This document shows positions 17,313 through 63,573 of a DNA stretch of 64,000 bases, in pieces; position 1 is the stretch's first letter; each line of letters starts with the position of its first letter. Source of the stretch: an uncultured Carboxylicivirga sp. (GTDB lineage Bacteria; Bacteroidota; Bacteroidia; Bacteroidales; Marinilabiliaceae); NCBI GenBank assembly GCA_947503525.1, contig CANNEA010000008.1, positions 186,001 to 250,000 on the forward strand, written 5' to 3'. The notes beneath the pieces were generated by a model. That model worked only from the letters and a program-made list of their open reading frames with translations, made no database searches and was not told the origin of the DNA. The position numbers were made by a program, and so were the translations under genes.

Positions 17313-17360
17313 TGGATTATTAGTGTTAGTCGATAATTATGCTAATCGTAGCTAATAGCA

Positions 17361-35692: not shown

Positions 35693-35730
35693 AGCAATAT
35701 TTAGAATGATTGCTTTATCTAGAAATCAAT

Positions 35731-38700
35731 ATGAAAAATATGAAAACAAATAGATTTTTAAAATATTCAAATGTGGTTTTGTTAGCCCTGTTGCTTGTGT
35801 TTCCTTTTGGGGGCGCTATTGCGCAGAAAAATAAAGCCAAGCTTGAAGAGGTAAGTTCTATCCTTGTAGATACCTCTGGGAATGCTATAGTTGGTGCAAC
35901 GATCTATGCCAATGAAGGGTCCATAGTGGTTAACTCAGATGCAGAAGGTAAATTTGTTACCAAGGCTAAACAAGGTACAGTATTACTTATAGAAGCGGAT
36001 GGATATACAGCTAAATTATGGGATTTGGCAATGCAACCGGCGGTACAAGAAATCGTTTTAGAGAGTATTCCTTTAAAGAAAAGTGCCAAGGATATGGTCA
36101 ATTTACCGCTTGAGCATCAAGTGAGTCAGCGTAATTTAGTTGGAGCTGTTTCTAAAATTGAGGGACGAGATTTGGAACGTTATGTTGATCCATTGCTTAA
36201 AAATACACTTCAAGGAATGGCTGCGGGTCTGAATGTTCTTATGACATCGGGAGGAATGGCTAATAATCCAGCTTCGGTTTTCGTAAGAGGCTTGTCTAGA
36301 AATGATGCGAATGGCCCGATTTATATTGTGGACGGCATAGAACGTGAATTTGATGATATCAATGCAGAGGAAATTGAAACGATTGAAGTTTTAAAGGATG
36401 CTACATCCAAAATTCTTTACGGGTCCCGAGCAGCTAATGGAGCTATATTGTTAACCACACGTCGTGGAGAATCCTTTAAACGAGTTATTGATGCTAAGGT
36501 TGATTTCGGCGCTGGTCTAACTACACGCATGCCTGAATTCCTGAATTCTGCTGATTATGCTACATTATATAATGAGGCTCGTAGTAATGATGGTTTGTCT
36601 GCCATGTATTCACCTGAACAAATTCAAGGGTATAAGAATAGTACCGGCGAGAATGATTTAATCTACCCTAATGCAGATTACTATGATTATTTCTTGCGTG
36701 ATCATACAACTTATAGCAAGGCAACATTAAATGTATCTGGTGGAAATAAGAATGCAAAATATGCTTTCATGGCCGGATACATGGGCTATGGAGGGTTGCA
36801 GGATGTTGGGATTAGACCAAGTCAGGACCGATTTAATATTCGTGCGAATCTGGATATGAATATTACTAGCGATATCTCAGCGTTTATCAATATGTCAGCA
36901 ATTATTGATTCATGGAAATACAGTGGATTAGATCATTCTTCAACCTTCGGAGCACTTAGTTCACACCGTCCAAACGAATATCCATTTATTATTGGGGAAG
37001 AATATATTCCACTTACCGATAAAGGGATTCCTGGTTTAGGCGCGAGTTATGTATATGCAGATAACTTACTGGCAAGCATGAAGTACCAGGGTGATGGGAC
37101 TGATCAGTTTATTAACCAACAGATGACAACAGGCTTTAATTTTGACCTCGATGACTTAACTGAAGGATTATACAGTTCTGTTTCATTAGCCTTTGATAAT
37201 AAGTTTTTCGGAAGTCAGGTTTTGGCCCCTAAAGCGGCCACTTACATTCCTGTAGTTGATCATTCTACCTTGGCGGCAGACGGCTCACCGGTTGTAGGTT
37301 TCGAACTAGCTCGTGCTTCTGTAGGGGATACCCAGTATAACCTGACTAATAGAAGTACACTTCGTACTACAGCGATGAATGCTAAAGTAGGATACGATAA
37401 AGAATTGGGCGCTGGTACACTTAATGCTTCTGCCGGATTTTACTACTACTTAAGAGAAGTTGCAGGTTCAGCTCAAAATGTTGAAAATGACAATGTATAT
37501 GTAAGGGCCAATTATGTTCTTAAGGATAAATATATACTTGAGGGGTCTCTTTCTTATATGGGAAGTAACCGTTTTATCAAAAGCAAACGTCGTTTCTTAT
37601 CACATGCTGTTGGTGCGGCCTGGGTTTTATCTGAAGAATCATTTATGTCAAATGGTATATTTGATTATTTAAAAGCTAAAGCAAGTTTTGGTATCTTAGG
37701 TTATGATGTTGCAACTGCTCACTATCTCTATGAAAACAGATGGAGTGGTAATGGTTCTCATGCATTTGGAGAACGTAATTCAGGAGATTCGCCAGGTAAA
37801 GTAAACTTAAATACATGGGGTAATCCGGATTTGGATTGGGAAAAGTCCAGAGAATTTAATGTTGGTATCGAAGGTGTAGCTTTTAACAAACACTTATCGT
37901 TTGAAGTTAACTATTTTAACGAGCACCGTTACGATATGATTGGTCAGGTTGATGAACAATATTCATCAATGTTTGGACCTTTCAAATATTACACGAATTA
38001 TGAGGAGGTTACCAACAATGGTGTAGAGTTAGATATTGATTATGTGAATACCGCCGGAGATTTTTCATACCGTGTTGGTGCTAATCTTACCTATTCAAAA
38101 AATAAGTTTACCGTAAAAGACGAAGTTGATTATTCTGATGATCGCAGCACTCAAGGTCGCCCGACAAGTGTTGTTATGGGTTATGAATCACTTGGCTTAT
38201 ATGGTAAAGATGTTGGATTGGAAGGCGCACCAAAACAATTATTTGGCCCTTATGGTGAAGGTGATATTGCTTATAAAGATCAGAATGGCGATGGTGTTAT
38301 TGATGATCTTGATAGGGTTGATCTTGGTTTGAGTACGCCAACAACATTTATTGGATTTGATGTAGAATTAAAGTATAAAGGTTGGGGATTATATGCCCTT
38401 GGAACAGCAACCTTAGGTAGTATGAAAACTTTAAGTAATACCTACTATCGAAACAATGCCGAGAGTAAATATTCAACTTTAGCATTTGACGCTTATCATC
38501 CAAGTCGCAATCCAAATGGTAGTCAACCGGCTTTGACAACAACTAATGGTGCTAATAATACTGTTACCTCAGATTTCTGGATGGAAAGTGGGAACTTTTT
38601 TAGATTGAAAAATGTAGAGTTAAGCTATACGATTGATTTTGCGCCAGCCAGTATAGTTAAGAAATCTAAATTTTTCGTTCGTGGAAACAATTTGTTTGTC

Positions 38701-38802
38701 CTTTCGGATATTAAAGATTTGGATCCTGAAGCACCGAATGGTGGAGTTACTAATTATCCTGTGCTTAGCATGATAACAGGAGGAGTCTCAATTTCTTTCT
38801 AA
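35731..38802 (+). CDS. susC: SusC-like TonB-dependent transporter 2, no canonical TonB box
   Basis: 1023 residues from the ATG at 35731 (MKNMKTNRFLKYS); the frame opens seven codons earlier with TTG, which is unlikely to be used. A signal peptide ends near GAIAQ. A CarboxypepD_reg-like domain (SSILVDTSGNAIVGATI) leads into the plug (VRGLSRNDANGPIYIVDGIE, ILYGSRAANGAILLTTRRG) and a barrel ending SISF; a DQNGDGVIDDLDR loop is present. Unlike SusC 1, the segment before the plug has no VVVGYG-type TonB box but reads KDMVNLPLEHQVSQRNLVGAV. It starts 38 bp after SusD 1 and ends 8 bp before SusD 2, in the same operon. The two SusC proteins are clearly different, so they probably import different oligosaccharides. 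Confidence 0.93.
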   Translation: MKNMKTNRFLKYSNVVLLALLLVFPFGGAIAQKNKAKLEEVSSILVDTSGNAIVGATIYANEGSIVVNSDAEGKFVTKAKQGTVLLIEADGYTAKLWDLAMQPAVQEIVLESIPLKKSAKDMVNLPLEHQVSQRNLVGAVSKIEGRDLERYVDPLLKNTLQGMAAGLNVLMTSGGMANNPASVFVRGLSRNDANGPIYIVDGIEREFDDINAEEIETIEVLKDATSKILYGSRAANGAILLTTRRGESFKRVIDAKVDFGAGLTTRMPEFLNSADYATLYNEARSNDGLSAMYSPEQIQGYKNSTGENDLIYPNADYYDYFLRDHTTYSKATLNVSGGNKNAKYAFMAGYMGYGGLQDVGIRPSQDRFNIRANLDMNITSDISAFINMSAIIDSWKYSGLDHSSTFGALSSHRPNEYPFIIGEEYIPLTDKGIPGLGASYVYADNLLASMKYQGDGTDQFINQQMTTGFNFDLDDLTEGLYSSVSLAFDNKFFGSQVLAPKAATYIPVVDHSTLAADGSPVVGFELARASVGDTQYNLTNRSTLRTTAMNAKVGYDKELGAGTLNASAGFYYYLREVAGSAQNVENDNVYVRANYVLKDKYILEGSLSYMGSNRFIKSKRRFLSHAVGAAWVLSEESFMSNGIFDYLKAKASFGILGYDVATAHYLYENRWSGNGSHAFGERNSGDSPGKVNLNTWGNPDLDWEKSREFNVGIEGVAFNKHLSFEVNYFNEHRYDMIGQVDEQYSSMFGPFKYYTNYEEVTNNGVELDIDYVNTAGDFSYRVGANLTYSKNKFTVKDEVDYSDDRSTQGRPTSVVMGYESLGLYGKDVGLEGAPKQLFGPYGEGDIAYKDQNGDGVIDDLDRVDLGLSTPTTFIGFDVELKYKGWGLYALGTATLGSMKTLSNTYYRNNAESKYSTLAFDAYHPSRNPNGSQPALTTTNGANNTVTSDFWMESGNFFRLKNVELSYTIDFAPASIVKKSKFFVRGNNLFVLSDIKDLDPEAPNGGVTNYPVLSMITGGVSISF

Positions 38803-49831: not shown

Positions 49832-50722
49832 ATGAAGCTAAAGTATAAATCTATTAGTGGTGAGAATAAAAAGGCCGTCCTTATTGAAAGAGTAAATGAG
49901 CGACACTTTGAACAAAATTGGCATTATCATGATGAACATGAATTGATTTATTATTTAAAAGGAAATGGATCCAGAGTTGTAGGTGATAATTTATCATCCT
50001 TTAACAAGGGTGATCTAGTATTAGTAGGTGCTGGTTTGCCCCATCTCTGGAAGAATAGTGAAGAAGTAGAACGGGATGGTTTGGATGCTATTATTATTAA
50101 ATTTAATACCAATAATAAAGCATTTCATTTATTGTCTTTGCACGAGTTTGATAATGTAAGACGACTTATAAGTATAGCACAACGTGGCGTTAAGTTTAAT
50201 CATAATACGGTTAGTCAGATTCATGGGTTAATGCTGTCCATAATCAGTGCCGAACCTGCACTGCAGCTTATTCTATTTTTTCAGGTGCTAAATGTGCTGG
50301 CGCAACAAACTGATATTGAATTATTGGCAAGCCCTGAATTTTCATTGCCTAAAACAAATTCTGAAGAACAGAGATTAACTCGTATTATTGAATTTGTCTC
50401 TTTCAATTATAATAATCAGCTTACTCTTGATGATATTTCTCAAGAGGCTGCTATGACACCTAACTCTTTGTGTCGTTTTTTTAAAACGCATACCAATAAA
50501 ACTATTTTTAAGTTTTTAAGTGAATATCGAATTGGAAAAGCTTGTGAGCTCCTTATCAATGGCGATAAATCAATTTCTGATGTATGCTTTGAAACGGGTT
50601 TTAATTCATTAACAAGTTTTAATCGTGTTTTTAAAGATTTAAAAAACGTAACACCTCGAGATTTTAAAAGGAAGTATAAGGTGTTAAGTTCAGGAATCGG
50701 ATTGCACGCATATTCTGCATAA
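49832..50722 (+). CDS. AraC-family transcription regulator with cupin sensor domain
   Basis: 296 residues without signal peptide, so cytoplasmic. The N-terminal 1-120 is a cupin-like ligand domain (NWHYHDEHELIYYLKG, GDLVLVGAGLPHLW). The C-terminal 185-285 is the double HTH of AraC/XylS (LTLDDISQEAAMTPNSLCRF, ISDVCFETGFNSLTSFNRVF). It lies directly upstream of the aldehyde dehydrogenase operon, which has its own promoter match, so it probably senses a cytoplasmic sugar intermediate such as AHG and activates that operon. The same order, AraC gene followed by AHG genes, is known from the Zobellia galactanivorans carrageenan locus. Confidence 0.9.
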   Translation: MKLKYKSISGENKKAVLIERVNERHFEQNWHYHDEHELIYYLKGNGSRVVGDNLSSFNKGDLVLVGAGLPHLWKNSEEVERDGLDAIIIKFNTNNKAFHLLSLHEFDNVRRLISIAQRGVKFNHNTVSQIHGLMLSIISAEPALQLILFFQVLNVLAQQTDIELLASPEFSLPKTNSEEQRLTRIIEFVSFNYNNQLTLDDISQEAAMTPNSLCRFFKTHTNKTIFKFLSEYRIGKACELLINGDKSISDVCFETGFNSLTSFNRVFKDLKNVTPRDFKRKYKVLSSGIGLHAYSA

Positions 50723-50874: not shown

Positions 50875-52311
50875 ATGAATTTTGGATATCAGAAATTATA
50901 CATAGGTGGTGAGTTAATAGACTCAAGCGAACAGTTGAAAGCAGATGTTATTTGTCCTGCAACAGGAGAGGCTGTTGCACAAATTGCTGAGGCCGCCAAA
51001 GCAGATACCTTAAATGCAATTGAGTCTGCTTGCAAAGGGTTTGAATATTGGTCTAAACTACCCCTTTCAGAGCGTACCGAGTGGATGATGAAACTGCGTC
51101 AGGCAGTATTGGATAACGAAGATCTGCTACGTCAGGCCATGGTACATGAAATGGGTAAGACCTATGAAGGTGCCTGGGAAGATATAGAGGCTGTTGTTAA
51201 TGGATTGGAGTGGTATCCCAATGCAATGAAAAACTTGCGTGACGAACAAATTCCTGATTATGAGGGGACGCATACCCATAAAATGGTGCATCAGCCTGCT
51301 GGTGTGGTAGTAGCATATTTAGCATGGAACTTTCCCTTATTAAATGTAGGTTTTAAACTCGGGCCTGCTTTAGCAGCCGGATGTAGTTTAATTATCAAGC
51401 CATCATCCCTATCTCCGCTATCAGCCTACTTGTTGGGTAAGGTAATGCACGATATTAATTTCCCAGCAGGTGTTGTTAATATTATATCCGGGAACATTGA
51501 TAATGTAGCGGATATTCTTACCAAAAGTAAAAAGACGAATGTACTGACTATGATTGGTTCAACACAAACTGGTTTACGGGTAATTGCTGACAGTACAACT
51601 TCCATTAAAAGGTTAAGTATGGAGTTGGGGGGGAATTCACCGTTTATAGTGTTTGAAGATGCTGATTTTGACAAAGCTTTGGATTTGGCAATTGGTCTGA
51701 AGTTTGGGAATAGTGGCCAGATCTGTGTGGCTGCCAATCGTATTTTCGTGCACGATTCCATCTATAATAAGTTTTTGGCGGCATATGTTGAAAGAGCGAA
51801 AGGATTAAAGCTTGGCTTTGGAAAAGAAGAAAAGCCTGATATGGGACCCGTCGTTACTCTTAAAGACCGCGACCGGATGTTCGACCTGATTAATGAAGCA
51901 GTTGAAAAAGGTGCTGTTGTAGAGGCAGGAGGTAAAATACCGGAAGGCAAAGTAAATGGTAACTGGATTGAGCCGACTGTTTTGTCAAATGTTAATGGAG
52001 ATATGCGTGTAGCCAAAGAAGAAATATTCGGCCCTGTGGCTGCACTATACAAATTCTCAACTGATGATGAGGTGTTGGAAATGGCTAACGATACAGAATA
52101 TGGTTTAGCGTCCTATATTTTTACAAATAATCATGCGCGTATTGAACGATTCTGTGCAGAGCTTGAGTTTGGAGAGGTACAAGTGAATGGTGTTAAATAT
52201 TCGATTTACCTACCTCATGGAGGGATAAAGAATAGTGGAATCGGTCATGATTGTTCCCACCTAGCACTTGACGACTACCTTGTGAAAAAGCGAATCACAG
52301 TAGCTAAGTAA
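50875..52311 (+). CDS. Aldehyde dehydrogenase, likely 3,6-anhydrogalactose dehydrogenase
   Basis: 478 residues, cytoplasmic, NAD(P)-dependent ALDH fold. Catalytic residues are WNFP (Asn152), MELGGNSP (Glu250) and GQICVAANR (Cys284); EEIFGPV is in the normal place. Open-chain 3,6-anhydrogalactose has a free aldehyde because the anhydro bridge prevents the pyranose ring, so an ALDH is the expected first enzyme, giving 3,6-anhydrogalactonate. A classical sugar dehydrogenase would instead make a lactone. It is followed after 41 bp by the permease and then the enolase-type enzyme, as in known AHG operons. Alternative substrates such as lactaldehyde or succinate semialdehyde are possible by fold but do not explain the neighbours. 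Confidence 0.85.
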   Translation: MNFGYQKLYIGGELIDSSEQLKADVICPATGEAVAQIAEAAKADTLNAIESACKGFEYWSKLPLSERTEWMMKLRQAVLDNEDLLRQAMVHEMGKTYEGAWEDIEAVVNGLEWYPNAMKNLRDEQIPDYEGTHTHKMVHQPAGVVVAYLAWNFPLLNVGFKLGPALAAGCSLIIKPSSLSPLSAYLLGKVMHDINFPAGVVNIISGNIDNVADILTKSKKTNVLTMIGSTQTGLRVIADSTTSIKRLSMELGGNSPFIVFEDADFDKALDLAIGLKFGNSGQICVAANRIFVHDSIYNKFLAAYVERAKGLKLGFGKEEKPDMGPVVTLKDRDRMFDLINEAVEKGAVVEAGGKIPEGKVNGNWIEPTVLSNVNGDMRVAKEEIFGPVAALYKFSTDDEVLEMANDTEYGLASYIFTNNHARIERFCAELEFGEVQVNGVKYSIYLPHGGIKNSGIGHDCSHLALDDYLVKKRITVAK

Positions 52312-52352
52312 TTATTATTGACTAAAACCAAAACTTAAAAAAGTATCATATT

Positions 52353-53375
52353 ATGGAAGCAATGTTTTTCCCTTTTTTATTAATAATATTTGCCAGTATT
52401 TTTCAAGGATCATTTGGTTTAGGAATGAAATATATGGCTCCTTTAAAATGGGAGGCTTGGTGGCTGGTACATGTTATTATAGCCATGATAATTTTGCCTA
52501 TGGCTTGGGCCTATCTTGCTGTACCGGATTTATGTGACGTATTGGGTACGTCCCTTTCTAATCCTGAGATGCAAAATGTTGTATTTATTGCAATGCTTTT
52601 CGGATTCCTCTGGGGAATTGGCGGAATATTATTTGGTGTCAGTGTGCCTTATATTGGTCTGTCTTTAACAATGGGGATTGTAATGGGATTAGCTGGTTCT
52701 GTTGGCGCTCTGATTCCTTTATTGCGAATGGATGATTCAACCTCTTTACCTCAGTTTCCATATGTTATTGCAGGATTGATAATAACCTTGGTCGGAGTAG
52801 CCATTACTGCCAAAGCTGGTATTGATAAAGATAAAATGACTACTGAAGAATCCGGACATAAATCCAATATATTAAAAGGAATATTGATTGCAGTTAGTTG
52901 CGGTGTTTTGTCGGCTTTGTTGAATGTAGGATTTGTTGAAGCAGCTCCAATTGCAAAACTGGCTGAAAAGATGGGTGCCATCGATAGAAATGCAAGTCTT
53001 GCAGCATGGGTTGTAGTATTAATAGGTGCATTTATTATGAATGCAGGTTATGCAATCTTTTTGTTGTTCAAAAATAAAACATGGAGTTCTTTCAGAGTTG
53101 AAGGTTCAGCTAAGGCATATCGTTGGGCCATACTGGCAAGTATCTTTTGGTTTGGTGCACTGGGTGTATATGGTCAGGGAGCTGCTTTAATCGGACCGAT
53201 TGGTGGAGTTATCGGATGGCCTATGTTATTGGGCTTATCTCTGATTGTAAGTAATTTCTGGGCATACAGAGCTGGCGAATGGAAAGGAGCGGTTAAACCG
53301 TTTAGATTGTTATTAATGGGGCTTACCGTGTTAATTATTGCAAGTATTATTCTGGGATATGCAAACCAGGTATAA
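52353..53375 (+). CDS. RhaT-like sugar permease
   Basis: 340 residues with about ten membrane segments spread over the whole chain, starting FFPFLLIIFASIFQGSFGLG and including VGVAITAKAG and a repeat-like half starting near NILKGILIAVSCGVLSALLN. Pattern and length fit the L-rhamnose-proton symporter (RhaT, DMT superfamily). In this operon it probably imports 3,6-anhydrogalactose, freed in the periplasm, into the cytoplasm. It lies 41 bp after the dehydrogenase and 36 bp before the cycloisomerase. No rhamnose isomerase, rhamnulokinase or rhamnulose-phosphate aldolase gene is nearby, so rhamnose is unlikely to be the substrate. Confidence 0.8.
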   Translation: MEAMFFPFLLIIFASIFQGSFGLGMKYMAPLKWEAWWLVHVIIAMIILPMAWAYLAVPDLCDVLGTSLSNPEMQNVVFIAMLFGFLWGIGGILFGVSVPYIGLSLTMGIVMGLAGSVGALIPLLRMDDSTSLPQFPYVIAGLIITLVGVAITAKAGIDKDKMTTEESGHKSNILKGILIAVSCGVLSALLNVGFVEAAPIAKLAEKMGAIDRNASLAAWVVVLIGAFIMNAGYAIFLLFKNKTWSSFRVEGSAKAYRWAILASIFWFGALGVYGQGAALIGPIGGVIGWPMLLGLSLIVSNFWAYRAGEWKGAVKPFRLLLMGLTVLIIASIILGYANQV

Positions 53376-53411
53376 GCAGCTACTCACCTGAATTAACAAG
53401 AAAATAGTTTG

Positions 53412-54542
53412 ATGAAGATAGTTAAAATAGAACCTTTTGTAGTCAGTCAGGAGTTAAACAAACCTTTCTATTTTTCACAATGGGAATACAAAACCAGAAC
53501 CATCTGCCTGGTAAAAGTAACCACAGAAGATGGTACCTATGGCTGGGGTGAAGGCTATGGACCTGCTTACTTGGTGAAAGCCGGAATAGAGTTCTTTGAA
53601 CCATTTATTTATGGAATGAATGCCTTGGAGCATGAAACAGTGTGGCAAATGATGTACCGTCGTTCTCTGGATTATGCCCGACGCGGTGTGATATTAGCTG
53701 CCTTAAGTGCTATTGACATAGCACTTTGGGATATTAAAGGCAAGCACTTTGGTTTATCGGTTTCAGATCTCTTAGGAGGTAGAAAACGCGAAAAGATTAA
53801 GCCCTATGCTACGGGTCTGTATTTCACACAATGTGAAAATCAGAAGCAGGAATTGGTCGACGAAGCAATTGACTATAAACAACAAGGTTTCAAAGGACTG
53901 AAAATGAAAGTGGGATTGGGTATTCCCAAAGATGTGGAGTACGTTAGCGCAATACGTCAAGCTATTGGTGACAAAATGGAGCTGATGATAGATTCTAATC
54001 ACGCCTATTCGCTGAAAGAAGCAGCTTTATTAGCACGTAAAGTAGAACACCTTAATATATCATGGTTTGAAGAGCCTGTTTCGCCAGAGCATTATAACTG
54101 CTATAAGCAATTACGCGATAAAACCTACATTCCAATCGCAGGGGGCGAATGCGAGTACTTGCGCTACGGTTTCCTGCAATTGTTCCAAAATCAGTCAGTA
54201 GATATTGCGCAGCCTGATATTGCGGCAGCCGGTGGATTAACAGAAGTGAAAAAAATTGCAGCCATGGCCAATACCTTTGGAGTTGAAGTTGTACCACATA
54301 GCTGGGGAACTGGCATTGCTCTGCATGCGGCAATGCATTTAATCGCTAACCTTGATATTATGCCGGGGCGTATGTTGGAATCAACACCATGGATGGAACT
54401 CGATCGTTCAGAAAACGAACTTAGAGATGTTATGACTGAACCACTTATTAAACCTGAGAATGGTTATTTAAAAGTACCGAATGGACCAGGTTTAGGCGTG
54501 GATGTAAATATGGATGTTCTGGCTAAATATGTTATTGATTAA
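53412..54542 (+). CDS. Enolase-superfamily enzyme, likely 3,6-anhydrogalactonate cycloisomerase
   Basis: 376 residues from the ATG at 53412 (the TTG just before is not needed). This is a mandelate-racemase-type enolase-superfamily enzyme: N-terminal capping domain (1-120), barrel with KMKVG (Lys164, Lys166), metal ligands Asp194 (MIDSNHAY), Glu220 (WFEEP) and Glu246 (GGECEY), and His296 (VPHSWGTG). Members of this group include galactonate, fuconate and rhamnonate dehydratases and the AHG-acid cycloisomerase, which opens the anhydro ring to a 2-keto-3-deoxy-galactonate. The neighbours (ALDH, KDG kinase, KDPG aldolase) favour the cycloisomerase. Dehydratase activity on galactonate is the main alternative. 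Confidence 0.8.
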   Translation: MKIVKIEPFVVSQELNKPFYFSQWEYKTRTICLVKVTTEDGTYGWGEGYGPAYLVKAGIEFFEPFIYGMNALEHETVWQMMYRRSLDYARRGVILAALSAIDIALWDIKGKHFGLSVSDLLGGRKREKIKPYATGLYFTQCENQKQELVDEAIDYKQQGFKGLKMKVGLGIPKDVEYVSAIRQAIGDKMELMIDSNHAYSLKEAALLARKVEHLNISWFEEPVSPEHYNCYKQLRDKTYIPIAGGECEYLRYGFLQLFQNQSVDIAQPDIAAAGGLTEVKKIAAMANTFGVEVVPHSWGTGIALHAAMHLIANLDIMPGRMLESTPWMELDRSENELRDVMTEPLIKPENGYLKVPNGPGLGVDVNMDVLAKYVID

Positions 54543-54553
54543 TATAAAACCTG

Positions 54554-57484
54554 ATGACAAAGTACACTACAAAGATATTGGCCTTAATGCTGTTAGTTTC
54601 AACAGTTGCATGTGCCCAAAAAAATAAAAACACCATCTCATTGAATGGAACATGGAACATTGTGTTTGACGATGTCAATGAGGGAGTAGAGAAAAAGTGG
54701 TATTTGAACGAAGAATTCTCAAAGCTTCAAAGTAAAGCTATTCAAGTACCTTCGTGTTGGGAAGAAATAGAAGAGAACTATGAAGGTGTTGGTTTTTATA
54801 CTCGAAAATTCAATATTCCGGTGAATTGGGAAGGTAAAATTGTTGAGATTGATTTTGATGCCGTAAACTATTATTCAGAAGTGTGGGTCAATGAGAAGGT
54901 GGTAGGTTTTCACGAAGGAGGTTATACTCCATTTAGTTTCCGAGTTGATAAGCTGTTGAAGTTTGGTGAAGAAAACACCATTATGGTAAGGGTGGTTAGT
55001 CCAATTATTTTAACTGATAAGCGTATTGATGGCATGGGACGCCAGGAAGTACCCATGTGGCGCGGAGCCATAACGGGTGGAATCTGGCAAGGTGTGAAGC
55101 TTAGTGCTAAAGGACATACCCATCTGGCTGATGCATTTATAGAACCAGACATTGCTTCAAATGAGGCCGTGTTTAATTTAACCATTAATAATGCTGATGC
55201 ATATCCTGCCACAAAACAAGTAGAGGTAAATATAAAAGATGCATCCGGTAAAGTAGTTACTTCCAAAAAGGAATCTATTGAAGCTTTACCCGGCAAAAAT
55301 GAATTGAGCTGGTCACTTAAAATTGATGATGCCAAATACTGGTCAGTAGATGATCCATATTTGTATAAAGCGCAGATCAAAATAATGGATGATAAAAATA
55401 TTGAAGATAAGTGGGTGCACAGGTTTGGAATGCGTGAGTTTTCTGTAAAGGATGATGTATTTATTTTAAATGGAGCGCCATTATACCTAAAGGCAACATT
55501 TTTTGAGGGTTTATATCCTGTAAAACTGGCTTATCCCGATAGTCGCGAGATGGCCATCAAAGAAATTACTTTGGCTAAAGAGGCCGGTTTTAATATGATT
55601 CGTCCATGGCGTAAACCTGCTCCGCCGATGTGGTTGGATTTATGCGATTCGTTGGGTATTTTAACTGTAGGAAGTTTGGTGACTGAGTGTATGTTACGAC
55701 CCATCTCGACGCCTCGTTTATCTCATATGGTGGAGAACGAATTGAGGGAGACGATATTGAATAATCGTAATCGTACATGTATTGTGCAATGGGAATTGTT
55801 CAACGAAATCAACCGACCTATTTTAGCGCAGATGCTAAATTCCATGTCCGTTTTAGCAAGGGAGCTAGATCCTACACGCATGATTCTGGATGAATCAGGT
55901 GGTTGGGGTGAAGGCGCTAATATCTACCTGCCTTACGAGCGTACACCAAAGAAATTCAACGATATCCACCATTACAGCGGATCACAGGTATGTGAAGAGG
56001 AATTTGATGGATATCTGGCGACTGCCAAAACTAAAGAGGAGAAGAAACAATTAGGTTTAGTAGCAGTGAAAAGTTATGGTAAGCATGTGGTTCCGGGTAT
56101 GATGACTTACCTTTCTGAAGTAGGATATGGAAGTACGCCTGATTTAACGAACAATAATAAGGAATTTAAGAAAAAGGGAAATCCGCTTGTAGCTCCGACA
56201 CTTTACCATAATGAATTGAACGATGGTTATCTGACTGCATTGAAAAAAGCAGGGTTTGATAAAATTTATCCGGATGTGCAAGACCTTTACCTGGAAGAGC
56301 AAAAGATTCATGGAATGGCTAATAAGCGCATGCTCGAAGCTATTCGATTAAACTCAACAGTTAAAGGTTATTGTGTTCATGCATTGGTAGGCGGTGATTG
56401 GGTCATTGGTGCCGGCTTGCTTGATTTATGGAGAAATCCGAAAACACTTGTGTACGATTTAACCAAGGCTGCAAATCAAACTCAAATTACTCCAATTCGT
56501 ATTTTACCACGCAATGTTTATGCGCAAAAAGGAGCCAAGTTAGAAGTGCATGGAGTGAGTGAATTAAACGATGAAAAAGTTAATTTAGAGATTCATGTGT
56601 TGGATGCAAATAAAAATGTGGTTTGGTCCGAAAACCTGAACACAACTTTTACTTCCGGTATTTCATCTTTTATAGATACACAGCTTGATACCAAAGACTA
56701 TTCCGGTTCATATGTTGTGGAGGTTAAAGTAACAAATGAGGAAGGAAGTGTGATTACTCAAAATAAACAAGCCTTTGATGTTTTTACTGCTGACCAATTG
56801 GCAAGGCCAAAAGCTCAGGTGGCTGTTGTGGATACAGAAGGAAGTTTAAAAGCATTTTTGGATGTCAAAGGAATTCAATATGTTGAGTTTAATCAAAGTT
56901 TAAATACGGATATTTCGGTTTTAGTTGGCAAAGCTCAAAAGAAGAACAAGGCATACACAAACAAAGCTCTGGAAGTAAAAGAGTTTGTTAAACAAGGAGG
57001 TTACGCGGTGTTTTTAGAAACAAGCGGTAATAGAGTGGCTGCCTTTGATCGAACTTTAAAAGAAGTAAACGAAGATGCTTTGCCATTAAATGCCGAGATG
57101 CTGGCGAAGTGGGCAACTCGTGGCGGTTGGGCTGCGAAAACGCACATTGTTACTGATCATCCTGTTTTTAATGGATTACCCATCAACATGATTATGCATG
57201 GCCTATACGAAAATGTACATCCTGTTGAAGCAATGTGTAAGCAGCAAGGTACATACATTGCCGGAATGATTGGGTATGACCATTTCCCAAATCATGATGA
57301 TATGCGACGTCATTACAACGGACCGGGTGATGTTTGGTGGGCAGCTGATGTATTGGAAGCCAATATTGGAGAAGGTCAGATGTTGATGTCAACCTTACGA
57401 ATCATCGATTTTCTGGAAAAAGATCCGGTAGCAGAAAAGCTCTTGTTTAATATAATGAACTACGCAGCAGAAAAAGCACAGTAA
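54554..57484 (+). CDS. GH2-like glycosidase lipoprotein with amidotransferase-like C-terminal domain
   Basis: 976 residues; the lipoprotein signal ends STVAC (Cys20). The GH2 order is present: jelly roll (28-185), Ig-like (190-300), and a TIM barrel (305-600) with WELFNEINRP (Glu418, acid/base) and TYLSEVGYGS (Glu522, nucleophile). After an Ig-like domain (about 650-750), residues 755-960 look like a glutamine-amidotransferase/ThuA-type fold (VAVVDTEGSLKAFLD, EVKEFVKQGGYAVFLE) without an obvious active-site Cys, a feature of some large trimming glycosidases. It starts 11 bp after the cycloisomerase gene, so it is tightly tied to AHG catabolism and may liberate AHG or its beta-galactosyl partner from disaccharides. 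The replacement of the usual GNE by FNE is unusual for GH2. Confidence 0.7.
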   Translation: MTKYTTKILALMLLVSTVACAQKNKNTISLNGTWNIVFDDVNEGVEKKWYLNEEFSKLQSKAIQVPSCWEEIEENYEGVGFYTRKFNIPVNWEGKIVEIDFDAVNYYSEVWVNEKVVGFHEGGYTPFSFRVDKLLKFGEENTIMVRVVSPIILTDKRIDGMGRQEVPMWRGAITGGIWQGVKLSAKGHTHLADAFIEPDIASNEAVFNLTINNADAYPATKQVEVNIKDASGKVVTSKKESIEALPGKNELSWSLKIDDAKYWSVDDPYLYKAQIKIMDDKNIEDKWVHRFGMREFSVKDDVFILNGAPLYLKATFFEGLYPVKLAYPDSREMAIKEITLAKEAGFNMIRPWRKPAPPMWLDLCDSLGILTVGSLVTECMLRPISTPRLSHMVENELRETILNNRNRTCIVQWELFNEINRPILAQMLNSMSVLARELDPTRMILDESGGWGEGANIYLPYERTPKKFNDIHHYSGSQVCEEEFDGYLATAKTKEEKKQLGLVAVKSYGKHVVPGMMTYLSEVGYGSTPDLTNNNKEFKKKGNPLVAPTLYHNELNDGYLTALKKAGFDKIYPDVQDLYLEEQKIHGMANKRMLEAIRLNSTVKGYCVHALVGGDWVIGAGLLDLWRNPKTLVYDLTKAANQTQITPIRILPRNVYAQKGAKLEVHGVSELNDEKVNLEIHVLDANKNVVWSENLNTTFTSGISSFIDTQLDTKDYSGSYVVEVKVTNEEGSVITQNKQAFDVFTADQLARPKAQVAVVDTEGSLKAFLDVKGIQYVEFNQSLNTDISVLVGKAQKKNKAYTNKALEVKEFVKQGGYAVFLETSGNRVAAFDRTLKEVNEDALPLNAEMLAKWATRGGWAAKTHIVTDHPVFNGLPINMIMHGLYENVHPVEAMCKQQGTYIAGMIGYDHFPNHDDMRRHYNGPGDVWWAADVLEANIGEGQMLMSTLRIIDFLEKDPVAEKLLFNIMNYAAEKAQ

Positions 57485-57565
57485 ACATTAAATGAATAGT
57501 ATAGTGCTGCAGTATAGCGAGGAGCTATTTGCAGCATTGTTTTTCTAATTATAAAATGCAGTGGA

Positions 57566-60052
57566 ATGAGAAAATTACTCATTATACTTTTATTCAACCT
57601 TAATATAGTTCAGCTATTTGCTTCTGAAAAACCATGGTCTGCCAAATGGATATGGTCTGATGAAGATGTGAAGGCTGAAGCCATTATGGCCCGCAAGCGG
57701 TTTGTACTTAATGATATGCCTGAGAATGGTGTATTGAAAATAACGGCTTCTGATTTTTACCAGCTGTACATCAATGAGCAATATATCAACCGGGGACCGG
57801 CTCGAAGTGCAGCGCATCATCAGTCCTACGATACCATTAATATTCTTCCTTACCTGAACAAAGGAGAAAACTTAATAGCTATAAGGGCTGTATTTGAGCC
57901 TGGTGCTTATTCTTATCAGTTTGAAGCACGCGCTGGATTATTAATTCAGCTAGAGTTGGACAAGCAAATCATTGTTTCGGATGATTCATGGAAATTAATT
58001 GAAGATGTTAGCTGGGATAAGAATTCACCACCAATCAGCCGCTTTCAACGTGATGTGGTCGATTGGGTTGATTTACGCACATATGAGCATGCATGGTTCA
58101 GTCGAACTTATGATGATTCGGAGTGGACGAAGGCGACAGAATTAATTCGTAACGAAGGATGGCCATCACATCAAAAAGGCGTTAGGGCATCGACCTTGAT
58201 CAATCCATGGACAAATCTGGTTAAGCGAGAACTTCCAATGTTGGCAGAGGTAATTGTTGCAAACCCTCAACTCATCCTGACAAAGCCCTATACCGAAAAG
58301 TCTAAAAATCTGGTTGCAAAAAAGATCAAGCTTGATGGTGAGGTGGATAAAGACATCAAAAAAAGGATGGGTCGACAAGAGCCTTTTGAGTTGGTTTTTA
58401 AAGATAGAGATGAAGGTCAATTATTGGTATTTGATTTCGGGGAGGTGATGAATGGTTTTCCTGTTTTGGACATTCAGGGGCAATCCGGAGGCCAGGTAAA
58501 GGTACTCTGTGCCCCATACGTATTGGATGAGCAGTTTTGTGCAACATTGGTAGATGCCAAGTATGAAGATCAAATTACTTTATCTGGCAACAGAGATATT
58601 TGGGAAGCGTCCTATTTTAAACCTTGTCGTTATATGGCTGTTTGGTTTGAAAACAGTGGGGCGCCTATTACAATTCATCAAATTGCTTTGCGTCGTATTT
58701 CTTATCCTTTTGAATTGAAAGGCAATATGGAGTCGAAAGATGCCCCATGGGTTAACAGTTACTTTTCTGCCAGTGCTAAAACCATTGACGTTTGTACCAC
58801 CGATGCCATCACCGATAATTATCGCGAGCGTCGTCAGTATGCTCAAACAGGTTATTATGGTGCCTTGGGTAACTATTACACCTTTGGCGATTTAGCCTTG
58901 CAAGGTCATTACTTGATTCAAGTTGCACAGGAGCAAATGGCTGATGGTATTATGCCGGCATATGCACCCATAGCATCAACTGATTACATGGTTATATTGG
59001 ACTCTAATTGCTTTTGGTTAAAAAGTCTGTGGAACTATTATTTGTACAGTGGTGATGTGGAAACGGTTGAGCGTTTATTACCTACCGCGGAAAGATTACT
59101 GAAGCTATTAGATGGGTTTATCAATGAAGATGGTTTAATTGATAATCCGCCTTATGCCTATTGGCTTGACCATGCTCTGAATGACAGGAGTGGTGCTAAT
59201 TTCACCTTAAATGCCCATTATTTGGAGGCTTTAGAAAATTATGTATTACTGTTAAATTCGTTGAATTCCACTCGTTCAGAGAATTACAAAGTAAAGGCAC
59301 TTACCGTAAGAAATAGTCTTGAAAAACACTTTTGGAATAAAGAGCTTGGCTTGTTTGTAGATGCCGTAGTAGAAGGAAAGCAGTCTGCCAGAATTAGTGA
59401 GCACGCCAATGCTATGGCTTTGGCTTTAGGTATTGCAAGCAAAGAACAGGGTATTGCAGTGGCAAAAAAGATAATGGAGCCCGACAATAATTTTGTGAAG
59501 CGTGCATCAGGCATGACTACGGTGACACCTGCCATGTCCTATTATTTGCATAAAGGATTATGTGAATATGGTTTTGTAAAGGAATCATTTGAGTTGTTTA
59601 ATAATCGCTTTGGACACATGTTGCATGAAGATACCAATCAAACCCTATGGGAAGAGTGGTGGTTGCATGGTAGCGGGCGTACAGGTATGTTTTTACCGCA
59701 TAAAACACGTAGCGATGCACAAACAGAAAGTGCTTTCCCACCGGTTTTGTTCGCCGAATATTTATTTGGCCTTAAACCGGTTGAACCGGGACTAAAGAAG
59801 TGGAGCCTTCAATATGTTGATTCAGGAGTTAATCACTTGAGTGGTGTAATTCCAATCGGAGATTCACAAGTGAGTATTGAATGGCTTAAAGGAAGACGAA
59901 ATAAACTACAACTGCTGGTTCCTCAGGGAGTTTCAATTGATTTAGATTTGAAAAGCTTAAATGCTGAGGGTAATATTCTGGTTAATCAGGAAATTGCTAG
60001 CAGTCAAAGTATTCTGAAGCTCAATGAAGGATCATATAATATTACATTTTAA
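57566..60052 (+). CDS. GH78-like (alpha/alpha)6 glycosidase
   Basis: 828 residues with a signal peptide (LFASEKPW near 18-25). N-terminal beta domains start SAKWIWSD and include YQLYINEQYINRGPAR, the GH78/GH106-type accessory module. From about residue 415 an (alpha/alpha)6 barrel follows, with DNYRERRQYAQTGYYG (Asp/Glu-rich catalytic loop), YAYWLDHALNDRSG and TLWEEWW. A small beta domain ends the protein. GH78 enzymes normally release alpha-L-rhamnose. Inside an AHG operon, 81 bp after a GH2 gene and 17 bp before the aldolase gene, an alpha-linked anhydrogalactose or galactose is a more logical leaving group. The substrate is therefore an open question; the fold assignment is moderately safe. 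Confidence 0.7.
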   Translation: MRKLLIILLFNLNIVQLFASEKPWSAKWIWSDEDVKAEAIMARKRFVLNDMPENGVLKITASDFYQLYINEQYINRGPARSAAHHQSYDTINILPYLNKGENLIAIRAVFEPGAYSYQFEARAGLLIQLELDKQIIVSDDSWKLIEDVSWDKNSPPISRFQRDVVDWVDLRTYEHAWFSRTYDDSEWTKATELIRNEGWPSHQKGVRASTLINPWTNLVKRELPMLAEVIVANPQLILTKPYTEKSKNLVAKKIKLDGEVDKDIKKRMGRQEPFELVFKDRDEGQLLVFDFGEVMNGFPVLDIQGQSGGQVKVLCAPYVLDEQFCATLVDAKYEDQITLSGNRDIWEASYFKPCRYMAVWFENSGAPITIHQIALRRISYPFELKGNMESKDAPWVNSYFSASAKTIDVCTTDAITDNYRERRQYAQTGYYGALGNYYTFGDLALQGHYLIQVAQEQMADGIMPAYAPIASTDYMVILDSNCFWLKSLWNYYLYSGDVETVERLLPTAERLLKLLDGFINEDGLIDNPPYAYWLDHALNDRSGANFTLNAHYLEALENYVLLLNSLNSTRSENYKVKALTVRNSLEKHFWNKELGLFVDAVVEGKQSARISEHANAMALALGIASKEQGIAVAKKIMEPDNNFVKRASGMTTVTPAMSYYLHKGLCEYGFVKESFELFNNRFGHMLHEDTNQTLWEEWWLHGSGRTGMFLPHKTRSDAQTESAFPPVLFAEYLFGLKPVEPGLKKWSLQYVDSGVNHLSGVIPIGDSQVSIEWLKGRRNKLQLLVPQGVSIDLDLKSLNAEGNILVNQEIASSQSILKLNEGSYNITF

Positions 60053-60069
60053 CGGAAAGAATTACACAG

Positions 60070-60744
60070 ATGCAACCAATTGCACAAAAGGCCATGACGC
60101 CTGAAATAATACAAAAAGTGGATGATGCCGGGGTTATAGCGGTATTAGTGATTGACGAGGTGAAGCATGCTGTACCGGTTGCCCAAGCACTTTTAGCTGG
60201 TGGCGTGTCTGCTATCGAATTAACACTTCGTACACCTGTTGCCTGGGATGCGGCTATGGCCATTAAGAATGAAGTGCCTGAAATTACATTGGGTTTTGGA
60301 ACCGTATTAACGATTGAGCAGGCTAAGAATGCCGCTAAAGTGGGAGCTGAATTTGCAGTGGCCCCAGGTTGTAATCCTAAAGTAATCGATGCTGCTCTTG
60401 ACTGTGGTTTATCTTTTGCTCCAGGCATTGTAACACCTACTGATATTGAATTAGCTCTGGAGCATGGCTGTCGTATTTTAAAATACTTTCCGGCTGAAAC
60501 ATCAGGAGGGATGAGGCATCTGACCAATATGGTTGCGCCTTATAACTATCTCAACCTTAAATTTATTCCATTGGGAGGATTGGGTATCAACAATGCAGCT
60601 GAGTACCTTAGTTCACCATTGATTGCGGCCATTGGTGGCTCGTGGATTGCCAAACAGGATTTGATTAAAGGTGAGCAATGGGATACCATTACTCAGAATG
60701 CTCAAGAAATAAGACAGTTGATAAAGGGTATCAGAGCGTTATAA
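60070..60744 (+). CDS. eda: KDPG/KDPGal aldolase
   Basis: 224 residues, cytoplasmic, class I aldolase. Motifs are GVSAIELTLRTP (Glu50, proton transfer), FAVAPGCNP and RILKYFPAE (Lys138, Schiff base), close to the canonical Eda pattern. It cleaves 2-keto-3-deoxy-6-phospho-gluconate or -galactonate to pyruvate and glyceraldehyde-3-phosphate. It starts 17 bp after the GH78-like gene and precedes the kinase by 100 bp. Sequence cannot separate gluco- from galacto-configured substrate; the operon suggests the galacto form. The first nine residues before PEIIQKV may contain a shorter start (MTPEII), with the ATG at 60094. Confidence 0.9.
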   Translation: MQPIAQKAMTPEIIQKVDDAGVIAVLVIDEVKHAVPVAQALLAGGVSAIELTLRTPVAWDAAMAIKNEVPEITLGFGTVLTIEQAKNAAKVGAEFAVAPGCNPKVIDAALDCGLSFAPGIVTPTDIELALEHGCRILKYFPAETSGGMRHLTNMVAPYNYLNLKFIPLGGLGINNAAEYLSSPLIAAIGGSWIAKQDLIKGEQWDTITQNAQEIRQLIKGIRAL

Positions 60745-60844
60745 ATAGCTTAAAGACTCAAGTAGCAAGACACAAGGTAAATAGTCCATAAATTGAACTG
60801 TAAATCATCTTGATGCTTGATACTCATATCTTGATAAAAAAAAT

Positions 60845-61933
60845 ATGAAAACAATAGTAACATTTGGAGAAATAATGGGGCGCATGGCCTCACCAGCAAA
60901 TCTAAGATTACGACAGACACGTGATTTTGAAATAACTTATGCAGGAGCAGAAGCCAGCGTAGCTGCCTCAATCTGTAATTTTGGAGGGAAATCCCGATAT
61001 GTAACAGCATTGCCAAAGCATGCCTTAGCCGAGGCATGCATGGATTCGTTACGTGCAGTGGGCATTGAAACCGATTCTGTATTACGCACCGATAAAGGTC
61101 GTCTGGGACTCTATTTTCTGGAGACAGGGGCCAACCAGCGTCCAAGTAATGTAATATATGATCGAGAAGATTCGGCAGTAGCCATTACACCTGCTGATCA
61201 GTACGATTGGGAGGGAATATTTGACGGGGCACAGTGGTTACACCTGAGTGGTATTACACCAGCCCTATCAATGAATGCTGCTGAGGCAACCTTGGTAGCT
61301 GCACAAAAGGCAAAGGCAGCCGGTGCATTGGTTTCAATTGATTTGAATTTTCGTGGTAAGTTGTGGAAGTGGGATGCATCCAAATCGACTCGTGAACTGG
61401 CTCAGGAAACAATGTGTCAGATATTACCTTTTATTGATGTTGTAATTGCCAATGAGGAAGATTGCCATGACGTCTTGGGTATTCAGGCAGGAGATACCGA
61501 TGTGCATTCTGGTTCTATTGATACATCGCGATATCCGGATGTGGCCCGTCAGCTGGTGAAACAATTTCCGAATGTGAGTAAAGTTGCTATTACCTTACGT
61601 GAGAGCCTGTCTGCCTCACATAACAACTGGGGGGCTGTACTTTACGATGCTAAATCGGATACACCACATTTCGCGCCATTAGATGGAGATGGAAATTATC
61701 AGTCTTACGAAATAAAAAACATTGTGGATCGTGTTGGAGGTGGCGATTCCTTTGCAGGCGGATTAATCTTTGCCTTAACAACGCCTGAATTAAATGAACC
61801 ATCATCAGCCATCAAATATGCTGTTGCTGCATCCTGCCTGAAACATTCTATTAAAGGCGACTTTAACTTTTCTACACGTGCAGAAGTGGAGGCCCTGATG
61901 GGAGGTAGTGCTTCGGGAAGAGTGGTGAGATAG
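60845..61933 (+). CDS. kdgK: 2-keto-3-deoxy-sugar-acid kinase (PfkB family)
   Basis: 362 residues, PfkB/ribokinase fold. Motifs are VTFGEIMGRM at the N-terminus, AGAEASVAASICNFGG (sugar site), SIDLNFRGKLW, and RVGGGDSFAGG (Asp301, catalytic base and anion hole). It phosphorylates 2-keto-3-deoxy-gluconate or -galactonate at O6 for the aldolase encoded just upstream. It is about 40-50 residues longer than many KdgK proteins, with extra sequence near 210-235. A 100-bp gap with A/T-rich sequence precedes it and 101 bp follow, so an internal promoter is possible. Confidence 0.9.
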   Translation: MKTIVTFGEIMGRMASPANLRLRQTRDFEITYAGAEASVAASICNFGGKSRYVTALPKHALAEACMDSLRAVGIETDSVLRTDKGRLGLYFLETGANQRPSNVIYDREDSAVAITPADQYDWEGIFDGAQWLHLSGITPALSMNAAEATLVAAQKAKAAGALVSIDLNFRGKLWKWDASKSTRELAQETMCQILPFIDVVIANEEDCHDVLGIQAGDTDVHSGSIDTSRYPDVARQLVKQFPNVSKVAITLRESLSASHNNWGAVLYDAKSDTPHFAPLDGDGNYQSYEIKNIVDRVGGGDSFAGGLIFALTTPELNEPSSAIKYAVAASCLKHSIKGDFNFSTRAEVEALMGGSASGRVVR

Positions 61934-62034: not shown

Positions 62035-63573
62035 ATGAGATTTAAAATAGCATTGATAATGCTTCTTTCGGGTTTCTTTATTATTGGTAATAGTCAAGAA
62101 AAGAAATCCAATGTCATCTTCATCATGTGCGATGATCTGAATGATTATCAAGGAGTGTTTGGTGGCCATCCGCAGGCTTATACACCTAATATTGATGCCC
62201 TGGCAGCTAAGGGTGTTCAGTTTATGAATGCCCAGTCCAATGCACCAGTATGTCAGCCATCGCGCAATAGTTTGTTTACAGGAGTTTATCCCCACGAATC
62301 AAAAGATTTTGGATGGACAAAACGAACAAAGCAGCCGGTTTTAAAGTATAATAAAACTTTGATCCAGCTATTTAAAGATAACGGTTATTACACCCTAGGT
62401 AGCGGCAAGTTACTTCATGGAAATCATGAACCTCAATCGTGGAACGAATGGGGCATGAATACTAAGCATAATTATGGTCCTTTTCCATTCAATGGAGAAA
62501 AACGTATAGCGCATCCTAAAGTACCAATGCCCTATCAGTCTATTGGTCCTGTTGATGGGTCTTACGGCCGTTTATCAACTTGTGATAGTTGGGTGTATGG
62601 ATGGGATTCAAAACCATTCCGTTATGTGTCTGATGATGATCGTGATCTGATGCAGGATGAGTTGCATGCGCAGTGGGCTGAGCAGAAACTGAAAGAACTG
62701 GATGAGAAAGAGTATGCGCAGCCTTTCTTTATGGGTATAGGTTTTGTAAATCCTCATACGCCGCTTCATGCACCCGATCGATTTTTCGATATGTTTCCGA
62801 TTGAAGAACTGGAGCTCGCACCATGGTTAGCGGATGATGCGGCAGATACCTATCTAAAAGATAATATTAATCCGAATAACAAGGGTTTTAAATACTACCG
62901 TATGCTACTTGAATCTTATGATGGAGATCGGGAGCAGGCTCTGAAGCATTTCTTGCAAGCTTACCTGGCATGTGTGGCCTTTGTTGATGAACAGATCGGA
63001 AAGGTGCTGAGTGCATTGGAAGATAGTCGATTTAGGAATAATACCATCGTTATTTTTACAGCCGACCATGGTTGGCAGATGGGAGAGAAGAATTACCTGT
63101 TTAAGAATTCACCCTGGGATGAAAGCGCACGTGTGCCAATGGTGATTATGGCGCCTGATGCTAAAGCAGGAGCTAAAGTTAAACAGCCGGTATCTCTGGT
63201 AGATATTTATCCAACTCTCATGGATTATTGCCAGTTAGAAGGCGATAATAAGTTGAATACCCAAGGAGGAATTTTAGGTGGTAACAGCATGGTGCCTTTG
63301 TTTGATAAAAGTAAAAAGACCAAATGGCAAGGTCCGAACGGAGCATTATCCATCGTCGGCAATATTGGTACACAAACCACGGTTGAAACACAACATTATT
63401 CGTATCGAACAAAGGATTGGCGTTATATTCGATATGCTGATGGACAGGAAGAATTATATTATCATCCTGACGACCAGCAAGCATGGAATAACCTGGCTAA
63501 TGAAAAGAAATATCAGAAGATTAAAAAACAGTTATACACAGAAGTCTGCCAGATTGTTGGCCTTGAATTATAA
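62035..63573 (+). CDS. S1 family sulfatase, iduronate-2-sulfatase-like (S1_7-like)
   Basis: 512 residues with a signal peptide (IIGNSQE near 16-22). Motifs are SNVIFIMCDDLNDY, PVCQPSRNSLFTG (Cys73, formylglycine site), GSGKLLHG and FTADHGWQMGEK, and a C-terminal KDWRYIRYADG. The MCDDLND, CQPSRNSLF and DHGWQ(M)GE blocks are typical of iduronate-2-sulfatase-like sulfatases (S1_7). In Zobellia an S1_7 enzyme takes part in carrageenan breakdown, which matches its place after AHG genes here. The family-level similarity is read from motifs and should be confirmed. Confidence 0.9.
   Translation: MRFKIALIMLLSGFFIIGNSQEKKSNVIFIMCDDLNDYQGVFGGHPQAYTPNIDALAAKGVQFMNAQSNAPVCQPSRNSLFTGVYPHESKDFGWTKRTKQPVLKYNKTLIQLFKDNGYYTLGSGKLLHGNHEPQSWNEWGMNTKHNYGPFPFNGEKRIAHPKVPMPYQSIGPVDGSYGRLSTCDSWVYGWDSKPFRYVSDDDRDLMQDELHAQWAEQKLKELDEKEYAQPFFMGIGFVNPHTPLHAPDRFFDMFPIEELELAPWLADDAADTYLKDNINPNNKGFKYYRMLLESYDGDREQALKHFLQAYLACVAFVDEQIGKVLSALEDSRFRNNTIVIFTADHGWQMGEKNYLFKNSPWDESARVPMVIMAPDAKAGAKVKQPVSLVDIYPTLMDYCQLEGDNKLNTQGGILGGNSMVPLFDKSKKTKWQGPNGALSIVGNIGTQTTVETQHYSYRTKDWRYIRYADGQEELYYHPDDQQAWNNLANEKKYQKIKKQLYTEVCQIVGLEL

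Follow-up and report, generated by a model that had tools for sequence, protein, structure and literature searches.

The GH78-like gene and its operon

The DNA analyzed here (the window) is a stretch of 64,000 nucleotides, positions 186001 to 250000 of contig C8 of the source genome, an uncultured Carboxylicivirga sp. Eight genes lie on the + strand between 50875 and 63573, with gaps of 11 to 101 bases between them and an AraC gene ahead of them. In order, they encode an ALDH, a RhaT-like transporter, an enolase-superfamily enzyme, a GH2, a GH78-like protein, a KDPG-type aldolase, a PfkB kinase and a sulfatase. The fifth, the GH78-like gene, is the subject of this study, and its neighbors are listed below with the evidence for each assignment, including identity to related genes on contig C4 of the same genome.

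49832..50722, + strand: AraC-family regulator, upstream of the operon (Pfam; 38% identical to its AraC counterpart in the C4 locus)
50875..52311, + strand: DauA-like 3,6-anhydro-D-galactose dehydrogenase (best PDB match 6pnu, 3.4e-152)
52353..53375, + strand: RhaT/DMT-family sugar symporter, probable AHG importer (Pfam, NCBIfam; 55% identical to the C4 paralogue)
53409..54542, + strand: DauB-like 3,6-anhydro-D-galactonate cycloisomerase (best PDB match 5olc, Zobellia DauB, 4e-166)
54554..57484, + strand: divergent GH2 (GH2a) of 976 aa, proposed beta-galactosidase for odd-numbered oligosaccharides (Pfam, PDB; homologue in 32 of 53 loci)
57566..60052, + strand: GH78-related glycoside hydrolase of 828 aa, candidate exo-alpha-1,3-(3,6-anhydro)-D-galactosidase (intact ORF, Pfam, PDB, motif, fold)
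60070..60744, + strand: DauD-like KDPGal aldolase (Pfam, TIGR01182; 69% identical to the C4 copy)
60845..61933, + strand: DauC-like KDGal kinase, PfkB (Pfam, NCBIfam; 62% identical to the C4 copy)
62035..63573, + strand: S1-type sulfatase (Pfam; homologues near the GH78-like gene in many loci)

Relatives of DauA, DauB, DauC and DauD lie together in this operon, in agreement with a preliminary description of this DNA that had placed the gene among genes for 3,6-anhydrogalactose (AHG). These neighbors are of the D-AHG type, and the case for reading the operon in this way is strong because its DauA and DauB relatives are nearest in the PDB to D-AHG enzymes. For the DauB-like protein, the L-AHG cycloisomerase 5xd7 was far behind 5olc (1.1e-41 versus 4e-166). 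The 6pnu entry is taken to be the DauA structure of Pseudoalteromonas PS47, since the code occurs once in the accessible text of PMC6923384, which describes a DauA structure.

The same description had noted that no gene for rhamnose isomerase, kinase or aldolase is near. A Pfam scan of 29 of the window's 31 non-nested ORFs of at least 120 aa (21-857 and 35710-38802 were left out) bore this out, returning none of these models, and the single RhaA match in the genome is on contig C3, ~20 to 35 kb from two GH78-type paralogues. There was likewise no GH16 model among the 29 ORFs. The transporter at 52353 belongs to the RhaT family, which is named after rhamnose.

Elsewhere in the window, two adjacent Glyco_hydro_cc (PF11790) enzymes with secretion tails are encoded on the - strand at 15153-19535, beside a GH29. 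Large proteins of the sulfatase-rich region, one of 1048 aa at 1990-5136 (- strand) and one of 925 aa at L005:10312-13089, had no Pfam match at the thresholds used.

Fold and active-site motifs of the GH78-like protein

By sequence and predicted fold, the protein is related to the GH78 alpha-L-rhamnosidases, yet appears to form a separate clade. It matched all three GH78 Pfam models above their curated cut-offs, Bac_rhamnosid6H (2.4e-16), Bac_rhamnosid_N (2.6e-6) and Bac_rhamnosid (2.6e-6) (PF17389, PF08531 and PF05592), and among its four PDB sequence matches at E<=1 the best solved relative was Bacillus RhaB (2okx; 4.8e-39), followed by 3cih. An AlphaFold (AF2) model with a mean pLDDT of 86.7 showed beta domains and an (alpha/alpha)6 barrel, and its top structural matches in the PDB were GH78 enzymes; 2okx matched with a Foldseek E of 1.2e-46 and a VIA Z of 38.9 across 746 residues. 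In a second fold comparison, GH63, GH37, GH94 and other (alpha/alpha)6 families reached Z values of ~24 to 26, below every GH78 row (31 to 39), and may be distant kin. The name GH78-like, given earlier from the letters of the sequence, therefore holds as far as fold and family resemblance are concerned. In a phylogenetic tree, all 41 family rows fell on one side of one branch (SH-aLRT 98), with outgroup branches that are very long and were flagged by the program. A signal-peptide-like stretch, read by eye at the N-terminus, suggests export, probably to the periplasm.

The families named for D-AHG release in the literature accessible to us are GH127 and GH129. DagA and DagB of Zobellia (GH127 and GH129-like exo-alpha-1,3-(3,6-anhydro)-D-galactosidases) resemble the present case in the reaction that we propose and in the accompanying dauABCD-type pathway, AraC regulator and DMT symporter, the last being the DMT sugar/H+ symporter ZGAL_3157 in the Zobellia carrageenan locus (PMC5698469). 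Unlike DagA and DagB, the GH78-like protein had no match at E<=1 to PF07944 (the GH127, DagA-type catalytic domain) or PF11308 (the GH129/DagB type), and the DagB structure 5opq was absent from its four PDB sequence matches at that threshold.

Two active-site motifs were located in the gene.

58814..58849, + strand: altered general-acid motif DNYRERRQYAQT, codons 417-428 (E421 aligned with E572 of 2okx)
59642..59653, + strand: TLWE, the GH78 general-base motif with E696, codons 693-696 (alignment; motif as given in PMC12838782)

In the published GH78 motifs, the general acid lies in DCPQRDERMGWLGD and the base in GATTLWERW (PMC12838782), and the catalytic pair of SaRha78A is named Glu636/Glu895 (PMC7263609). 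When the protein was aligned to 2okx, E421 corresponded to E572 and E696 to E841, while W576 was replaced by Y425 and D579 by T428. These residues of 2okx are described as catalytic. Conservation was counted in an alignment of 41 family members. Within the acid motif, D417, N418, Y419, E421, R423, Q424, Y425 and Q427 were present in 41/41 and R420, R422 and T428 in 40/41. The usual pattern, D..(D/E)...GD, is not retained in full: the D and E are kept, and GD is replaced by QT (Q in 41/41, T in 40/41). The D-to-E spacing is 4 in the family versus 5 in 2okx, with one residue missing ahead of the acid. The base motif TLWE is retained (T693 and E696 in 41/41, L694 in 40/41, W695 in 37/41). Model confidence was lowest (pLDDT<50) at residues 414-423, which is the altered acid motif itself. 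Since the altered acid loop is conserved in the family, it points to a changed -1 subsite instead of decay.

Compared with the GH78 alpha-L-rhamnosidases BsRhaB (2okx), BT_1001 (3cih) and SaRha78A (3w5n), the protein has the same domain plan, barrel, TLWE and Glu aligned with the general acid, but differs in its acid loop (DNYRERRQYAQT instead of DCP..E.....GD) and in its AHG instead of rhamnose context. An alpha-L-rhamnosidase, or another deoxy-hexose enzyme, that removes a decoration within a broad red-algal locus would account for the GH78 Pfam models above cut-off, for a rhamnosidase as the best PDB match and for a RhaT-family transporter in the same operon. Such an enzyme is difficult to reconcile, however, with a GD to QT change found in 40 of the 41 members, with an acid loop one residue shorter than that of 2okx, and with surroundings that gave no rhamnose-use model in the 29 scanned ORFs and, by BLAST, neither RhaA nor its three neighbors in the fetched stretch of any of 53 family loci. 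The two C3 paralogues, which were found by similarity to the target, keep the usual GH78 motif and sit on the same contig as RhaA; the target is 21-23% identical to the two aligned GH78-type paralogues of its own genome. Based on motif, context and the separate contig of RhaA, a plain rhamnosidase was rejected, and we consider this whole class of activity very improbable.

Family loci and the genomes that carry them

Contigs of ~85,000 genomes were scanned with a three-sequence alignment; the scan needs either of two short conserved stretches, so relatives that have neither are missed. It yielded 53 loci, of which 52 count as family (L084 had no family ORF in a later count), from Bacteroidota, Alteromonadales, Verrucomicrobiota, Kiritimatiellales, Planctomycetes and Acidobacteriota. 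The Bacteroidota hosts are Carboxylicivirga and Labilibacter (69-71%), Maribacter algarum, Flagellimonas algicola, Algibacter mikhailovii, Lutimonas, Lewinella and others. In samples of 393 genomes of the order and 395 of the phylum, the GH78-like protein had two close matches besides itself (E<=1e-60 and 1e-50).

Neighbors were assigned by the best BLAST match of ORFs of at least 120 aa to proteins of the window and its genome, with identity thresholds of 40 to 60%. Within the fetched stretches of the 53 loci, GH2a was found in 32, DauB in 21, DauA in 16, RhaT-like transporters in 15, and DauC and DauD in 14 each; a further 16-locus count was obtained for relatives of a single C4 sulfatase that has S1_15 enzymes among its PDB matches. 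At least one Dau gene was present in 22 of the 53 loci, including loci of genomes with no convincing GH127 or GH129; the preliminary description had proposed looking for exactly this adjacency in other Bacteroidota. The remaining 31 loci had no Dau gene at the thresholds used, many of them on short contigs. Among the 32 loci of at least 15 kb, 19 had DauB, 26 had GH2a and 13 were without any Dau gene. GH127 was found in none of the 53 fetched stretches by this BLAST comparison, which is able to see it (64 to 81% in other stretches).

The order of these genes varies (X, family gene; T, transporter; A to D, DauA to DauD). It is A-T-B-GH2-X-D-C in Carboxylicivirga, B-A-D-C-GH2-X in Maribacter, B-A-T-C-D-GH2-X in other Flavobacteriaceae (where C and D are only 29-31% like those of the window), B-GH2-X-D-C in a Cyclobacteriaceae MAG, B-GH2-X in Lewinella and X-GH2-B in an uncultured Bacteroidetes. 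Differing orders argue against a single inherited block, and the tree of the 41 family rows requires at least five changes of Dau adjacency.

Several loci carry variant neighbors. In L047, L050, L052 and L082, the kinase and aldolase beside DauA/DauB are only 29-33% identical to DauC/DauD of the window, likely a non-orthologous replacement. Verrucomicrobial relatives (36-37%) in L075 (12604-16855) and L078 (2007-6257) lie next to a RhaT-like transporter (56%) and to a member of the enolase superfamily that is only 35-37% like DauB; the sugar may be a variant one. The GH78-like gene of Colwellia piezophila (L061, 2769-6035 and 12470-13165) has as near neighbors XdhC, a molybdenum aldehyde oxidoreductase and a short-chain dehydrogenase, possibly an alternative oxidation route for the released sugar. 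In several loci, relatives (31-71% identity) of a 761-aa protein (L024:4289-6574) are again found close to the GH78-like gene.

The standing of GH2a as the most frequent partner, in 32 of the 53 loci, would also suit an arrangement in which AHG is freed by the GH2 and the GH78-like protein has another task, or is a non-catalytic or a binding protein. The usual targets of GH2 enzymes are beta-galactoside-type bonds, and an alpha-D-AHG bond is not typical of them, which makes cutting of the AHG bond by the GH2 less likely. L039 and L071 carry all four Dau genes without GH2a in the fetched stretch, in genomes that have GH127, and the catalytic-type Glu residues of the GH78-like protein are invariant in the 41 members. 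We regard this arrangement as improbable.

For the host genomes, 31 family-bearing genomes were picked from the 53 loci, leaning to long contigs and Dau neighbors, and searched for GH127 and DauB; 19 further genomes were searched for DauB only (L038 was left out, as were L066 and L081, whose record prefixes are shared with L052 and L078). At E<=1e-60, DauB was found in 26 of the 31 and 13 of the 19 genomes and not in the other 11 of 50 (5/31 and 6/19); the five include Colwellia piezophila, an Alteromonadaceae MAG and a Prolixibacteraceae MAG. At E<=1e-100, DauB was found in 35 of 50 family-bearing genomes versus 5 of 394 others from the class to which the window belongs (Fisher p ~1e-34), a comparison that is neither habitat-matched nor phylogenetically independent and that overstates the link, since the controls come from that class alone and the 50 span several phyla. 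Viewed from the DauB side, the GH78-like gene adjoins only one of the five other DauB loci in the class-wide sample.

Twenty of the genomes searched for GH127 have DauB beside the family gene. Nine of these match GH127 at between 8.6e-36 and 4.6e-120, and 11 have no GH127 match below 1e-10: the genomes of L032, L033, L048, L052, L054 and L082 gave no match at all, and those of L034, L035, L036, L037 and L050 gave weak matches (E between 6.6e-6 and 8.4e-4), with L034, L035 and L037 marked as reaching the Pfam cut-off. The L034 match (Carboxylicivirga marina), the one case of the five that was followed, is 64% identical to a DUF255 protein of the source genome and was rejected as a GH127. Each of the 11 genomes has one DauB, within or at the edge of the GH78-like locus. 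Seven of them have a size of 4.9 to 6.4 Mb; the other four, at 1.5 to 2.8 Mb, are small and probably incomplete. No GH129 Pfam match above cut-off was found in these 11; the GH129 search covered 28 of the 31 genomes and the source genome (n=29), and its positives were Pelagicoccus and a Cyclobacteriaceae MAG (2/29). These 11 genomes without a convincing GH127 or GH129 make the strongest case that the AHG-releasing step can come from this family.

The source genome itself is different: in a whole-genome search, contig C4 gave two GH127 genes (1.3e-94 and 1.0e-93). Their locus also holds sulfatases, GntP, MFS, FAD oxidoreductase, AraC and SusCD-like genes and a LacZ-type GH2, and resembles the Zobellia carrageenan locus ZGAL_3145-3159 (PMC5698469). 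A second set of DauA, DauB, DauC, DauD and RhaT-like genes, 55 to 69% identical to those of the window, lies ~16 to 24 kb further on C4. The genome has two complete D-AHG sets, at 50875-61933 of the window with the GH78-like gene and at L028:3521-9093 on C4 in the GH127 locus. A weak GH127 match on C2, seemingly a third copy, is a DUF255/thioredoxin protein with a weak GH88 match, and was rejected.

The preliminary description had suggested that the enzyme fills the role of GH127 and GH129, and had pointed to a GH127 just outside the window as evidence to the contrary. The same whole-genome search found no GH127 on the window's contig. The suggested role is supported by the Dau linkage and the altered acid motif, but simple replacement of GH127 in the source organism is rejected in view of the two C4 genes. 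In this genome the GH78-like enzyme would instead add to GH127, and it may replace GH127 in Carboxylicivirga that are free of it.

The presence of GH127 in the source genome also lends some weight to an alpha-galactosidase for alpha-1,3-linked D-galactose of the non-anhydro kind, which may carry sulfate or come from carrageenan of hybrid, mu/nu- or lambda-type; AHG genes would be adjacent because natural carrageenans are hybrids. With the GH78 active-site motif changed, galactose is as possible a substrate as AHG, and several loci keep the GH2 without Dau genes (e.g., L040, whose genome lacks DauB at E<=1e-60). The recurrent partners, however, are AHG-catabolic enzymes, and an alpha-galactosidase would leave the 11 genomes with DauB beside the gene without a recognized AHG-releasing enzyme. 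We view it as fairly unlikely.

Proposed role in carrageenan breakdown

In carrageenan, D-AHG is alpha-1,3-linked to galactose. On balance, we lean toward reading the GH78-like protein as an exported exo-hydrolase with a GH78 fold, one that acts at the non-reducing end of carrageenan-type oligosaccharides and takes off alpha-1,3-linked D-AHG there; its substrate, bond, location and mechanism are inferred from sequence and context. GH15, GH37 and GH63, whose (alpha/alpha)6 barrels are related in fold to GH78, invert alpha-D-glycosides, which makes alpha-D-AHG specificity on a GH78 scaffold reasonable. An inverting mechanism would be expected, in which E421 serves as the general acid and E696 as the base. 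Sulfatases would first trim sulfate from the oligosaccharide, the GH78-like enzyme would then free D-AHG, and the neighboring GH2 would take off the exposed beta-1,4-galactose, after which the cycle would repeat. D-AHG would enter through the RhaT-like symporter, whereupon DauA would oxidize it, DauB open it, DauC phosphorylate it and DauD split it. In Zobellia, ZGAL_3633 removes beta-1,4 galactose (PMC5698469).

A more doubtful proposal is that the clade arose from a GH78 rhamnosidase ancestor as a third, unrelated D-AHG-releasing family taking sulfated AHG or oligosaccharides beyond the reach of GH127. Sulfate would then be bound by the near-invariant arginines around E421. If true, this would explain why the source genome has one complete dau set alongside GH127 and another alongside the GH78-like enzyme.

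In the open-access literature as available to us (subscription papers and CAZy lay outside its scope), no assignment of anhydro-D-galactosidase activity to a GH78-like protein was found; accessible papers on new Marinilabiliales and phycosphere species yielded nothing on a GH78-like AHG enzyme, and the sole GH78 mention in the accessible text of PMC5698469 concerns gut PULs. Pseudoalteromonas PS47 and Colwellia echini are described as growing on carrageenan without GH127 or GH129 (PMC6923384, PMC6952198), which implies that other families must exist. The gap is alike, in that their anhydro-D-galactosidase is not accounted for by GH127/GH129, but the PS47 candidates are predicted beta-propellers (PMC6923384), unlike the GH78-like protein. 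Pseudoalteromonas and C. echini are absent from the 53 loci, as returned by a scan that needs one of the two short conserved stretches.

AHG is a main carrageenan sugar, and an enzyme that frees it performs a necessary step. By context and motif, the GH78-like protein is a well-supported candidate for a new D-AHG-releasing hydrolase family on the GH78 fold. If this is true, a rhamnosidase scaffold would have been reshaped for a bicyclic sugar, and the family would offer a further catalyst for D-AHG production. It would also be a marker by which to find candidate users of carrageenan that escape GH127/GH129 searches, several Carboxylicivirga among them.
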